53,598 nucleotides of DNA from Synergistaceae bacterium. GTDB lineage: Bacteria; Synergistota; Synergistia; Synergistales; Synergistaceae. Shown here piece by piece: positions 48,291 to 53,314 of the stretch. The notes beneath the pieces were generated by a model. That model ran no database searches and was not told the DNA's origin. It saw only the letters and a list, made by a program, of their open reading frames with translations. Both the position numbers and the translations under genes were made by a program. The DNA lies in contig JAISYM010000029.1 of NCBI GenBank assembly GCA_031269875.1, forward strand, positions 1 to 53,598. The letters are read 5' to 3'. The first letter of the stretch is position 1; each line of letters opens with the position of its first letter.

Positions 48291-50177
48291 ATGAAGATAT
48301 GCAGTCGTTGCGGCAATAATCTAACTTGGAACAGGTCATTCTGTCCTCTGTGCGGCGGTTTTCTTGTGGAAAAGCCGGACGACGCCGTGTTCGCGCAAAG
48401 CATGGATTATGCGCCTCAGGCCGCCAGGCAGGAACCTGCGCCGACAGTTCAGCCTCAACAGACGCTCCCTCCTGATGTGAGCCCGCTGGATGAGGCGGCT
48501 GCTTTCGTTGGTTCGGATGGCGCACAGGCGGCGCAGAGCGCTCCGCCGATATACGATTACCCTCCGGCGGACACCACGCCGCCGGTTATTCCGACGCCGC
48601 AGCCGATATATGATTACCCGCCGGCAGACGCCGCGCCGCCCGCGCCAAAAGTGCCGGATGCCCCCGCGAGGCTTCAGAGTGATGAGCCGCCGCGGATGCC
48701 GTCCTTCGGACAGGAAAATCTGCCGGGTGCCGCGAAAGAGTTCAACCTTGACGCGCCTTTATCCGCTCCGCGATTGGACTCGTTCACCGGCGCGAATGAA
48801 CCGGAGCCCGTCCGACAGCCTCCGAAACCTACGGCGGCCGAACCATTTTTGGGCATTATGAAAGGTTCCTCTGGCGGCAGGGTGGATATGATTCCGCAGA
48901 AAGAGCAGAGAGAAACGCAACCGGCGCAGCACGCGGGCGACGGTACTTTTGAGCGGATTGGCGCGCCTGAAGATATAAAGGCTTATTCAAACGCCCCTAA
49001 TGTGGATATGTTCAGCAGAAAAAAGGAGAGTTTAATACCTCAATCACAGCCCGGTATTCAGGCTGCCGAGCAGCTCGGCAGCCGTCTGAAACCCGGCGTC
49101 GCTGATTCTCAGAGGGTGGTGGGGTTTACGGTGCCGGTTCCCGCTCCACAAGGCGCCGGAACGCCGGTTCCATCAGTGCCGCCATTGCCTCCGACGGAGG
49201 AGATTCCTCGGCTTTTTTCCGAGGCGGCCACGCAGCCGCCGGTTCCCTCAGTTCCGATAAGGACGACACCTCCGGCATTTATTCCGCCGTCGCTGGCGGC
49301 AGAACCCGCCGCTTCTCCGCCGCCGGCGGTTCCCATTATGCCGGCGGCGCAAGCGATGCCGATAATGCCGCCGCCCGGCGTAACGCCCGTACAACCTACG
49401 GTGGTACAGACACATCCGACGGATCCGTTTTTTGGCGTCATGCCGCCACCGCCGATACAGGCTCAACCAACGCCGGAGTGGACGTCTGGCGCTACGCCGC
49501 CGCCGCTTCCGACGCCGCCAATACCACAGCCTCTCGATATGACGCAGGCGCAGCCGCTTGGCGGCACGCCGCTTCCGACGCCTACAACCCTGACGCCTCC
49601 TCTTGGCGCCACGCCGCCGCCGCTTCCAATACCGCCGCAACCGGTACAGCAGGCGCAACCACAGCCGCCGCAGGTTTCGCAGCAAGCGCCCCTGCCGGCG
49701 CCGCAACCGGTACAGCCTCCGCAGGCACAACCACTGCCGCCGCAAGTTTCGCAGCAAGCGCCCCTGCCGGCGCCGCAACCGGTACAGCCTCCGCAGGCGC
49801 AACCACAGCCGCCGCAGGTTTCGCAGCAAGCGCCCCTGCCGGCGCAGCAACCGGTACAGCCTCCGCAGGCGCAACCACTGCCGCCGCAGGTTTCGCAGCA
49901 AGTGGCTATGCCGGCGCAGCCTCCGGTACAGCAGGAGCTGCAAGACTCTCAGCCGTTGCCCCAACAGGTGTCGCCGCCGACCGTTCAGCCGGCTATGTCA
50001 AGGTTCGCGGAGCTAATCCCCAAATCGCAGCCGCCCCTGGAAACATCGGGACAGCCCCAACTCCCGGAGCAGCCGCCAACAGCAGCTCCAGTACAGCCGG
50101 CAGACAAAGCGGACAACTTCCAGCCGTTCCATTCGGGGGAATTTTTAAAAATGTTCCCCGAGGCGAAGCCGGATTAG
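48291..50177 (+). CDS. Zinc-ribbon protein with a long proline/glutamine-rich region (zero-frame product)
   Basis: I do not recognise a named family. The 628-residue product begins with a zinc ribbon (Cys4, Cys7, Cys18, Cys21: [10 protein letters not shown] and FCPLCGG). Almost all the rest is low-complexity sequence rich in Pro, Gln and Ala, including YDYPPAD repeats near residue 85-110 and four copies of a 24-residue unit ([20 protein letters not shown] core). The final residues are [16 protein letters not shown]. No membrane segment is present. Codons 618-620 read TTT TTA AAA, and a -1 slip there would join this protein to the membrane domain encoded in the overlapping frame, giving about 934 residues. 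The neighbouring paralogue (51087) has zinc ribbon and membrane part in one frame, which supports a fusion. A strong promoter and GGAGG ribosome-binding site precede it. Confidence 0.8.
49645..49935 (+). repeat. 72-bp tandem repeat, about four copies
   Basis: The marker CAGGTTTCGC (CAAGTTTCGC in copy 2) recurs at 49671, 49743, 49815 and 49887, exactly 72 bp apart. Units differ by a few bases and the last one is the most diverged. Each encodes 24 Pro/Gln-rich residues in the gene's frame and an Ala/Thr/Gly-rich stretch in the -1 frame, which is why that frame stays open. Confidence 0.92.
50144..50150 (+). promoter_or_regulatory. Candidate programmed -1 frameshift site, T_TTA_AAA
   Basis: In the zero frame the bases read GAA TTT TTA AAA ATG, so T_TTA_AAA forms a perfect X_XXY_YYZ heptamer. 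A -1 slip continues AAT GTT CCC in the frame of the downstream membrane protein. The zero-frame stop is 25 nt further on. A GGGGGA tract sits just upstream (50135-50140) and a short stem-forming CCGAGGCGAAGCCGG lies a few bases downstream. The T5A5 run would also permit transcript slippage. Confidence 0.55.
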
Positions 50178-51094
50178 GAAAAACCGAAGATCGCGAAGAA
50201 AGTAAAGAAAGCAGAGAAAGAGTCTCGATTTTTAAGTTGCACGAGGTTCCGTCCGATTGGGCCGACGATCCCACGAGCGTAGGCGAGTGGGGTGCTTGGC
50301 CGCCGCTGCCGACGAGGTATAAAGTCCCCGCTCGGAGCGTCGTGCATCGGCGCAGGGGGATGTCTCTCCTTCTTTATATTCTTTTCTGGCCAATTCTCTT
50401 TGCGGTATCTACGATCAGCTTTGTCGCCAGGAGGTGCTTTGCGCTCGCGCGGGGCGCTTTTTCCAAGGCTCGGGCAGATTCGCCTAAAGCGCCGGCCGTA
50501 TTGGGTTATATTCCGGTCGAACTCTATGCGGCGCTCTCTGTTCTGACGTGCGGCCTTTACCCGTTCTCCTGGCTGTGGTCCAATTCCGCGGCATTTACTA
50601 ATCTGTGCGCCAACAGGTTTCAGGAGAAACGATTGCGTCTTTACGCGGTCACTGGTTTTTGTGTACAGCTCCTGCTTCCTGTTTCACTTGCGCTCTTTCT
50701 GGCGTCGCGCTTTACGGACTCGCTCCGGTTTGAGTATTTCGCCCCGCGCTTCCTGCTGCTCTATGCCGCCTCTTACCTTCTCCTTGTTTTCCCGCAGAGG
50801 TGCTATCACTTCTTTGATCTGCGCTGGAACATTCGGCGCGCGGTGGAGGCGTGGGATAAAGACGGAGTCATGATCAGCCGGACGATGAAGTCGTGGTTCA
50901 AACTTTTTACATTTGGATCGGCCTATATACAGTTCCATATCAATAGGCTCATCGGACTAGGTATGCCTGGTTTCGTGGGTCAGGACGAGATAATGAGGGA
51001 ATTTTCCGTCAAGAACTGGCTCAATGAATACGTGATTATAAAAAAGCGCGGAGTCAGGATATCGGACGAGCCCGGAGAGATTCAAGATGGCTGA
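50150..51094 (+). CDS. DUF4234-like membrane domain, probably expressed as the -1 frameshift fusion
   Basis: From the slip site this frame encodes 314 residues. A charged linker ([16 protein letters not shown]) leads into HEVPSDWADDPTSVGEWGAW and about four membrane helices. The second helix region, VLTCGLYPFSWLW, matches the GxYxxxW pattern of DUF4234-like proteins. A conserved AYIQFHINRLI lies near the end and matches PYLQFHLNEIV in the adjacent paralogue. The frame is open back to 49478, but that part is only the shadow of the tandem repeats. Independent starts are poor: TTG 50237 has no ribosome-binding site, and ATG 50360 has its G-run directly abutting and would delete the linker. Translation by frameshifting from the upstream gene is therefore favoured. 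It overlaps the next gene by 8 nt. Confidence 0.7.
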   Translation, partial: NVPRGEAGLGKTEDREESKESRERVSIFKLHEVPSDWADDPTSVGEWGAWPPLPTRYKVPARSVVHRRRGMSLLLYILFWPILFAVSTISFVARRCFALARGAFSKARADSPKAPAVLGYIPVELYAALSVLTCGLYPFSWLWSNSAAFTNLCANRFQEKRLRLYAVTGFCVQLLLPVSLALFLASRFTDSLRFEYFAPRFLLLYAASYLLLVFPQRCYHFFDLRWNIRRAVEAWDKDGVMISRTMKSWFKLFTFGSAYIQFHINRLIGLGMPGFVGQDEIMREFSVKNWLNEYVIIKKRGVRISDEPGEIQDG

Positions 51095-51866
51095 GGAGGG
51101 GCTTTATTGCGAGAGTTGCGAGAGCGTGATGGCGCCGGATTGGTCTCTGCCGTACTGTCCTGTGTGCGGAGGCAAGGTTGGCCATAAAATCCTAGACAAG
51201 CCGGAAAGCGCCGCGGCGGCCGATTCCGCTTCTAAAAAGCGGGATAAGCCACAAGACGCGAAGCTCAATGAAGACAGCGGCGAAAACGACGCTAAAAACT
51301 CAGAACAGCTTCGCTCCGAGGCGTTCGACGAGCTGAAACAAGCCTCGCCTGTGAGTATTTTTACGGCGGATATACTGACGCTGGGTCTGAGATCGACGCT
51401 GTGGATGCTGCGCTGGATGGGTTCGCTCGAAGGTATGGCAAGGCAGGACGAACGTCATGGCAGACGCGCTCTTTATCTCTGTTTCGTCCTTTACACGGCG
51501 GTGATGGCGCTCATAGCCCTCACCTGCCGCGAGCTTTACGGGGCGGGATGGAATAATTTTTGGTCTTTGGATTTTTGGGGGCTTGGGGGCATGTTTGGGG
51601 ATTCGATTTTTCCGCGTGCCGCCGCGTGTCTTTTCCCACTGTTTTTCCTTATGAACAGGCATATCCTCTTTTGGGCGCGCGAAGTAATAGCGGACGCGAT
51701 TCAGATGGAAAACGCGGACACAATTAACACTAAGACGGAATCCTTCGCCCCATCGCCGTTCCTGCTATGGTTTATAGGCGTCCCATATCTCCAGTTTCAC
51801 TTAAACGAAATAGTGAGGGCGCGCAATCTCGCGAATTTCAAATCGTCAAAACGCCGCCCGTCCTGA
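51087..51866 (+). CDS. Zinc-ribbon membrane protein, paralogue of the upstream frameshift fusion
   Basis: A 259-residue protein. The N-terminal zinc ribbon has Cys8, Cys11, Cys24 and Cys27 (YCESCES and YCPVCGG). A charged linker (about 35-85) and a membrane domain with roughly four helices follow. ILTLGLRSTLWML and the late PYLQFHLNEIV correspond to VLTCGLYPFSWLW and AYIQFHINRLI of the upstream membrane domain. The gene starts 8 nt before the upstream stop, so the two are coupled. This protein shows the intact zinc-ribbon plus membrane layout in one frame. Function unknown; the zinc ribbon would face the cytoplasm. Confidence 0.82.
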   Translation: MAEEGLYCESCESVMAPDWSLPYCPVCGGKVGHKILDKPESAAAADSASKKRDKPQDAKLNEDSGENDAKNSEQLRSEAFDELKQASPVSIFTADILTLGLRSTLWMLRWMGSLEGMARQDERHGRRALYLCFVLYTAVMALIALTCRELYGAGWNNFWSLDFWGLGGMFGDSIFPRAAACLFPLFFLMNRHILFWAREVIADAIQMENADTINTKTESFAPSPFLLWFIGVPYLQFHLNEIVRARNLANFKSSKRRPS

Positions 51867-51895: not shown

Positions 51896-52378
51896 TTACT
51901 TTAAACGTAATCTCAAGGTATAGTTTGAACCGGATGCGCTCCCGCTGTAACCGCCGTCCGCGTGCTGTTGCACGAATTTGTCCAGCGCGTCCGCCAAACT
52001 CGAGTCGGCATGGAAGTTCTCAAAGGCGACGAGCAGTCTGTCATTGTCATCCGCGTCTCGTGTAAGCAAAGCCAACCGGTCGGCGGGCAGCGGATTGTCG
52101 AGGATATCGTTGACAGCGGCCGTAAAGGTGTTCTTATTATTGACAAGAGCCGCAAGCGGGTTGTTGTTCCTCGTTCTGTTCTGGTTTTCATACGAAAGCG
52201 CGGCCTGCTTTACCGACTCCAAGTCGGCCGCGATCTTCGTCGCCCTGGCTTTTTCGGTCGAGCCTCCGAATATCAGTATTATAAAGCCTGCCAAAATGCC
52301 GAGCATAACACACACCACAAGCATCTCGGTCAAAGAGAAAGCCTTCGATCTATGCGAAATCAACCTCAATTTCGGCAA
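51896..52378 (-). CDS. Type IV pilin-like / pseudopilin protein
   Basis: A 160-residue protein with a class III prepilin leader: a basic 12-residue start, then Ala13 followed by FSLTEMLVVCVMLGILAGF. The mature N-terminus would be Phe14, with Glu at +5 (Glu18) and a long hydrophobic helix, as in type II secretion pseudopilins and type IV pilins. The residue before the cleavage site is Ala rather than the usual Gly, which is less common. The globular part contains RTRNNNPLAALVNNKN and ends GSNYTLRLRLK. No other pilus or secretion genes are in the window. It lies 93 nt after the lytic transglycosylase gene on the same strand. Confidence 0.85.
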   Translation of the reverse strand: MPKLRLISHRSKAFSLTEMLVVCVMLGILAGFIILIFGGSTEKARATKIAADLESVKQAALSYENQNRTRNNNPLAALVNNKNTFTAAVNDILDNPLPADRLALLTRDADDNDRLLVAFENFHADSSLADALDKFVQQHADGGYSGSASGSNYTLRLRLK

Positions 52379-52471
52379 CCCCCCGAATACAGATATTCAC
52401 ACTCCGAACTATATCACTCCCGGGACTCACGGTAAAGGAGACTATAGAACTAAATGTTGCGTTACTCTGTT

Positions 52472-53314
52472 TTAATTCGTTCGCGTTGCCAGTTCCGCCT
52501 CGTGGTTCATAATGCTGGCGATGTTGCTGTTGACCTTTCGCAGATATGACGCCGAACCGCCTCCGCTGTAACGGTTCATCGCGAGTTGAAGCGACCCGTA
52601 AGCTCTCAGGTATCGTGAGAGCAAGAGGCATCCCGCCGCGATGGCTTTTTCGGGATCGGAAAGGGGGTTCGCGCCTGACGCCGCGTATATTCCGTTAGAA
52701 TTCAAGAGCCCTTTGTGAATTTTCCACATTACCTGCATCACTCCAGACGCGCCCTTGGGGCTGACGGCGTCCGGGTTGAACGTGCTTTCCGCTTTGGCTA
52801 CGGCAGTCGAGAGCGCGAAAGGCACGCCGTATTTCGCGCTGTAGTGGACAAGCGCCGCGGCTTCGCGCCACGCTGTTTTCGCGTCGATCTTCGGATTTGT
52901 CTTCCTGATGAAAAGCGCCGTCGACGCCACGTTCCGCTGCGTGGCGGACGACATAAAGCGGATGCGGGCAAGCGCCGAATCGGGGTGTTCTTCCAGCCAC
53001 GCGCCGAAATGATCGAGGACGAGGTTCATCTCCCTGACGGCGCGAAGCACTGACGCGTCATATCCTATCTGAGCGTTTTGAGCGAGCGGAAGGGCGCTCT
53101 TTTCGGAAACAGGGCGAACAGGGCGCGCGAACGCCGGATTGCCGCCGCCGGACGGCATGAAAACCGTGTAAGCGGAGTTATTTCTCTTTTCGGCAACAAT
53201 GCCATTTGACACAAGTACAAATGGTAGTATTATGAATGGAAGAACCGCAAGGACGAAACACAATACCATCCTTGCCGTGAGGTCCACGGTTGAACCCGTG
53301 AATTTGTTGAACAT
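52472..53314 (-). CDS. Lytic transglycosylase (SLT domain)
   Basis: A 280-residue protein with an N-terminal membrane helix (about 15-40) and a C-terminal SLT domain (about 160-265). The catalytic glutamate is Glu176 in AVAKAESTFNPDAVS, followed by the GVMQVM element and a late NRYSGGG. Such enzymes cleave glycan strands to 1,6-anhydromuropeptides and often open the wall for secretion or pilus machines, which fits the pseudopilin gene downstream. An AGAGGTGG ribosome-binding site and a very strong promoter precede it. The middle region (about 85-155) is helical and not recognised. Confidence 0.88.
   Translation of the reverse strand: MFNKFTGSTVDLTARMVLCFVLAVLPFIILPFVLVSNGIVAEKRNNSAYTVFMPSGGGNPAFARPVRPVSEKSALPLAQNAQIGYDASVLRAVREMNLVLDHFGAWLEEHPDSALARIRFMSSATQRNVASTALFIRKTNPKIDAKTAWREAAALVHYSAKYGVPFALSTAVAKAESTFNPDAVSPKGASGVMQVMWKIHKGLLNSNGIYAASGANPLSDPEKAIAAGCLLLSRYLRAYGSLQLAMNRYSGGGSASYLRKVNSNIASIMNHEAELATRTN

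Follow-up and report, generated by a model that had tools for sequence, protein, structure and literature searches.

A probable -1 frameshift would link a zinc-ribbon protein to a membrane domain across a long two-frame coding region in gut-type Synergistaceae

How is a membrane domain translated when it has no convincing start codon of its own and its reading frame runs for about 1 kb in the -1 frame of the preceding gene? This question is raised by a contig from a draft genome of a Synergistaceae bacterium, analyzed here over its whole stretch of 53,598 nucleotides (the window). In our judgment the locus is best explained by programmed -1 frameshifting at 49214-49217 in the window's genus, with a probability of about 0.83. 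The features of the locus are as follows.

48291 to 50177, + strand: zero-frame open reading frame (ORF) of 628 amino acids by translation, with a zinc ribbon, a Pro/Gln-rich disordered region and a conserved C-terminal tail
49103 to 49105, + strand: TGA, the final -1-frame stop before the long open -1 frame, at the same position in locus L015
49217 to 50174, + strand: dual-coded segment, Pro/Gln-rich in the zero frame and a stop-free Ala/Gly/Ser/Thr-rich linker in the -1 frame
50138 to 50177, + strand: codons and stop of the conserved EFLKMFP-type tail
50144 to 50150, + strand: heptamer T_TTA_AAA singled out in the preliminary description, in phase and conserved in no relative
50178 to 51094, + strand: part read in the -1 frame only, with a conserved SIFKLHEVPxDW segment and a DUF4234-like membrane domain, lacking a conserved start codon
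51087 to 51866, + strand: downstream gene with zinc ribbon and membrane domain in a single frame, a remote paralogue

The preliminary description of this DNA had proposed a programmed -1 frameshift at the heptamer, giving two products, one of them a fused form of about 934 residues. Comparison among genomes gives good support to the frameshift, the two products and the length of the fused form, but the location of the shift and the elements that would direct it had to be revised.

The zero-frame protein does appear to begin with a CxxC/CxxC zinc ribbon, followed by a long Pro-rich part as originally described. Pfam matches to the ribbon are weak (best 15 bits versus a cut-off of 25, PF13240/PF13248), and its CSRC...CPLC pattern (CxxC...CxxC) is invariant in four aligned N-termini. 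The -1 frame indeed encodes a membrane domain through to 51094, overlapping the downstream gene by 8 nt. However, it does not begin at the heptamer as had been thought: in the window it is open already from 49106, which gives an overlap of about 1.07 kb with the zero frame. This membrane domain matches DUF4234 (PF14018) with an E value of 2.7e-4 and 21.4 bits. Since the score is under the gathering cut-off of 25.3, whereas the relative at locus L010 scores 47.2, we call the domain only DUF4234-like. An AlphaFold model of it (pLDDT 66) had no significant match among solved structures, and nothing relevant was found in the literature on DUF4234 or on frameshifting in the phylum Synergistota. The single-frame layout of the gene at 51087-51866 is as first reported, but its membrane domain, described as matching, is only a remote relative of the -1 domain (profile comparison, E 5e-5, probability 67%). 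The operon's neighbors on the minus strand, at 51896-53314, are an SLT transglycosylase and a protein bearing a prepilin-type N-methylation motif; both are also present in L015.

A search with the membrane domain provided full or partial copies of the locus from three congeners (L014, L015 and L016 in genomes G001, G002 and G003, respectively), together with remoter family members; the sister-genus loci are L042 and L043, in genomes G015 and G063. The preliminary description had suggested aligning homologues to see whether the -1 overlap is conserved, and it is: a -1 membrane ORF with a long overlap is found in six genomes, namely, four species of the window's genus, G015, and G063 in one of its two copies. 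In the membrane-domain tree these six genomes, from three genera, form one clade (support 100/98), so one origin is enough. The two-frame layout is real and conserved among a few gut-type Synergistaceae, and the sister genera have the same arrangement. Most other relatives encode the membrane protein in a gene of its own downstream, at variable spacing, in any of the possible relative frames and, in several cases, with a clear ATG start. Because the parts are separate genes in most other members, a fused single frame is not the family's usual form, contrary to the earlier view that it is the natural one; the exception is L010, from another Synergistaceae genus, which encodes a distant zinc-ribbon-DUF4234 protein in a single frame. 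Genome G063 has both versions of the locus, L043 (C13) with the -1 overlap and L044 (C15) with a separate, ATG-started membrane gene. In G001 (C56/C111: L014, L066) and G003 (C130/C8: L016, L067), the contig breaks inside the dual-coded repeats of the zinc-ribbon gene (gene 1), which is split between contigs such that the full -1 frame is visible in neither genome. Automatic annotation would therefore record two incomplete genes and miss the layout.

The zero frame ends in a tail that reads (G/S)EFL(K/R)MFP(E/D/G)A in most relatives and GEFL(K/R)MFP(E/D)A(K/R)P(D/E)-stop within the six genomes. A DNA pattern for this tail has at most one match per genome, at the gene-1 locus. Retention of EFL(K/R)MFP across many Synergistaceae, on a disordered protein that is hard to align, suggests a binding peptide.

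Is the -1 frame selected as protein upstream of the zero-frame stop, which lies at 50175-50177 in the window? Ahead of that stop, the four complete copies of gene 1 have 356, 322, 396 and 494 codons of uninterrupted -1 frame, and terminal open runs of this length occurred in 0 of 500, 2.4%, 0 of 500 and 0 of 500 synonymous shuffles, respectively. The terminal -1 open run in relatives with separate genes is 0 to 43 codons. Past the slip site or candidate site, the same four genes have 0 -1 stops versus 3.8, 2.3, 7.0 and 7.7 expected. Protection is strongest in G015 and G063, and for L015 taken alone the post-slip openness has a p value of 0.07. No stop depletion was seen in the +1 frame over the same stretch. 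Control genes show a mild -1 stop depletion (74 observed versus about 96 expected, a ratio of about 0.77), which is insufficient to explain the absence of stops in gene 1.

The substitutions point in the same direction. Between G001 and G002, the closest pair, zero-frame third-position changes go from 125 of 349 codons upstream of the slip to 20 of 129 in the sampled overlap (p 1e-5), and first-position changes, which are second-position changes in the -1 frame, are the rarest within the overlap. This is the pattern expected of dual coding; it comes from the closest pair, the repeats being uninformative in divergent pairs. Around the stop, substitutions in the last 14 zero-frame codons fall on zero-frame third positions, and from about 54 nt past the stop they fall on -1-frame third positions; both frames are therefore protein-coding there. 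The products of the dual-coded DNA are Pro/Gln- or Pro/Thr-rich in the zero frame and Ala/Gly/Ser/Thr/Asp-rich in the -1 frame. Since the -1 openness arises rarely or never in shuffles and is missing in separate-gene relatives, and given the dual-coding pattern, we place the shift about 1 kb upstream. We considered the conserved CCG GAN TAR stop as the place of a shift or of reinitiation but dropped it, because protection of the -1 frame extends about 1 kb upstream of it.

A cassette of three elements is found near the 5' edge of the open -1 frame.

49196 to 49202, + strand: GGAGGAG, a Shine-Dalgarno (SD)-like stimulator, 11 nt upstream of the tetramer
49214 to 49217, + strand: shift-prone tetramer U_UUU within CTT TTT, the proposed -1 slip site
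49223 to 49240, + strand: hairpin GGCGGC-CACGCA-GCCGCC, 5 nt past the tetramer, with an invariant stem and a variable loop

The cassette, about 930 nt upstream of the heptamer in the window, is at the homologous place in 4 of 4 species of the window's genus, 18 to 36 codons past the last -1 stop. At the position of GGAGGAG the congeners have the SD-like sequences GGGGGTG, GGAGGTA and GGAGGGG; the encoded amino acids differ, and the SD duplex energies of the four species are -9.5 to -11.5 kcal/mol. CTT TTT is identical in all four and is followed by 5 nt, NCCGA, and then by GGCGGC-N6-GCCGCC, a 6-bp all-GC stem. Because the stem is invariant in the four sequences, covariation is absent; the folding z-scores range from -2.0 to 0, which is modest. 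The slip region has identical codons at 7 of 8 shared residues versus 27 of 89 elsewhere (p 0.0025) and is the most synonymously conserved of 51 alignment windows in the aligned upstream part of the gene. Across 53 family genomes, the sequence pattern of the cassette is found once in each congener and nowhere else. By explicit criteria, which were fixed only after the site had been seen, a complete cassette arises in 1 to 8 of 300 synonymous shuffles per gene, and neither strand of the 53.6-kb window has a second instance. For -1 shifts, the published spacing of an SD stimulator is 9 to 14 nt (PMC5009743), and stimulatory structures lie 5 to 8 nt downstream of the shift site (PMC4066793); the spacings of the cassette fit these rules. 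U_UU.U is counted among the shift-prone Z_ZZ.N tetramers in E. coli, where U_UUU is weak, reaching the percent range at most, given a strong stimulator (PMC4066793). Comparative sequence evidence bears out the conservation of the cassette, selection on the -1 frame and the two C-termini.

Other slip sites were also considered. A site at RVVGF with GGG-TTT, in the window and L015, offers poor re-pairing, and CTT TTT was preferred after the 5' halves of the gene from G001 and G003 were found. In L042 and L043 the same criteria gave no cassette. Two possible candidates at these loci, GAT TTT TC(G/A) at RV(V/L)DFS and (A/G)AT TTT AC with a long GC stem, CCGCCGGC...GCCGGCGG, behind it, are not picked up by those criteria.

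The membrane domain could instead be translated on its own, with ribosomes reinitiating close to the zero-frame stop at a non-standard start (ATT for the window's genus, ATA for L042 and GTG for L043), which we regard as improbable. This would agree with the clear -1-frame constraint past the stop, with the tight packing of the family's operons and with the sequence GGAG-TAAAG-GTG, which L043 carries directly past the stop. However, the six genomes do not agree on a start: they have no NTG in common ahead of the conserved -1 peptide, L014 and L016 have none near the stop, and the first NTG of the window is a TTG within the conserved peptide (I/V)F(K/R)LHEVPxDW itself. Reinitiation also leaves unexplained the 320- to 490-codon openness of the -1 frame, the dual-coding pattern and the upstream cassette. 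We rejected two further kinds of start: the non-AUG codons ATT, ATA and CTG have no position common to the six genomes, and for an internal start the -1 frame has at most one NTG per hundreds of codons, none of them common.

A slip at T_TTA_AAA (50144-50150) that would fuse the whole Pro-rich protein with the membrane domain, as the preliminary description had it, is very unlikely. The motif is present as reported (TTTAAAA in phase, 25 nt before the zero-frame stop), and U_UUA_AAA is plausible as a slippery heptamer. But none of the five relatives that share the layout (L014, L015, L016, L042 and L043) has it; being confined to the window, it cannot be the mechanism common to the six genomes. 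The F-L-K/R codons are TTT TTA AAA in the window, TTC CTG AAA in two congeners and TTT CTA AGA in the other, and TTT TTG AAG and TTT TTG AAA in the sister genera. The heptamer thus reflects a synonymous codon choice within a conserved F-L-K(R) peptide, with about a 1% expectation from local codon usage. A slip at this site would also leave the roughly 1 kb of stop-free -1 frame and the upstream cassette unexplained. Across the heptamer, at 50135-50158 of the window, lies a near-perfect palindrome, GGGGAATTTTTAAAAATGTTCCCC, which is not kept as such in relatives.

We give an equally small chance to transcriptional slippage at the T5-T6 run, in which an extra base in the mRNA would produce the same fusion as ribosomal slippage at 49214-49217. 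The site is a homopolymer, T6 in the window, but only T5 in 3 of 4 congeners, and transcriptional slippage usually needs runs of eight or more, or two shorter ones combined (PMC3711429). It also gives no role to a conserved SD-like sequence and hairpin at ribosome-type spacings. Finally, a gene simply broken, as a pseudogene or by an assembly indel, is refuted by the comparison of genomes, even with draft assemblies, several of them named as metagenome assemblies, and two congeners whose contigs break in repeats: the frame relation is identical in six genomes, both frames are under purifying selection, the T runs at the slip site differ in length through a substitution and not an indel, and sequencing error is excluded because separate assemblies of several species have the same layout.

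Under the preferred reading, -1 slippage at U_UUU, ribosomes on the zinc-ribbon gene would arrive at CUU UUU (49212-49217), where GGAGGAG, 11 nt upstream, would pair with 16S rRNA and the GC hairpin would begin 5 nt downstream, and a minority of them would slip one base back on U_UUU. The unshifted product would be the protein of 628 amino acids, with zinc ribbon, Pro/Gln-rich region and conserved tail. The shifted product would have 934 amino acids (308 codons up to and including CTT, one Phe from the slip and 625 more), consisting of the shared first 309 residues, an Ala/Gly/Ser/Thr-rich linker of about 320 residues, the KLHEVP segment and finally the DUF4234-like membrane domain. Since the shift is placed at 49214, the -1 linker would take the place of the second half of the Pro/Gln-rich region, and the EFLKMFP tail would be lost. 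We infer slippage itself and its frequency, and its efficiency is probably in the percent range. With less certainty, we infer that slippage may serve to fix how much of the zinc-ribbon protein is soluble and how much is tethered to the membrane, which is the simplest option.

The proposed site resembles known systems in part. Like E. coli dnaX, it combines an SD-like stimulator, a shift site and a stem-loop in a chromosomal, non-mobile gene whose two products share an N-terminus (PMC5009743). It differs from dnaX in its tetramer, U_UUU instead of A_AAA_AAG, and in what follows: the dnaX shift terminates one codon on, whereas here ribosomes would read on for about 625 codons, membrane domain included, and the dual-coded overlap is long. 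With transposases of the IS3/IS911 family it shares the Z_ZZ.N tetramer class, a 5-nt spacer to the structure and the fusion of two ORFs, and the SD stimulator found here is frequent at their -1 sites as well (PMC4066793). Unlike in those elements, there is no mobile element here, the parts fused would be a zinc ribbon and a membrane domain, and the overlap is about 1 kb. The carboxysome scaffold gene csoS2 (Cso2A/Cso2B) is likewise chromosomal and encodes a disordered, repetitive protein with two C-terminal forms made by a -1 shift (PMC5009743), but it belongs to another protein and pathway, with no reported SD stimulator and no membrane anchor. In L010 and the gene at 51087-51866, one polypeptide combines zinc ribbon, linker and membrane domain, as predicted for the shifted product, but in a single reading frame, with a short linker and no frameshift.

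It is likely that about 1 to 1.5 kb of chromosomal DNA encodes two selected low-complexity linkers in overlapping frames and that a programmed -1 slip at its 5' edge picks either a soluble tail or a membrane anchor. Few conserved -1 frameshifts are known in non-mobile chromosomal genes (PMC5009743). This locus would add a case in which the shift toggles a protein between soluble and membrane-tethered forms, as well as an unusually long bacterial two-frame coding region. With its cassette built on a tetramer, it belongs to a kind of site that heptamer-based genome searches would overlook, and its low-complexity sequence would make dual coding possible at low cost.
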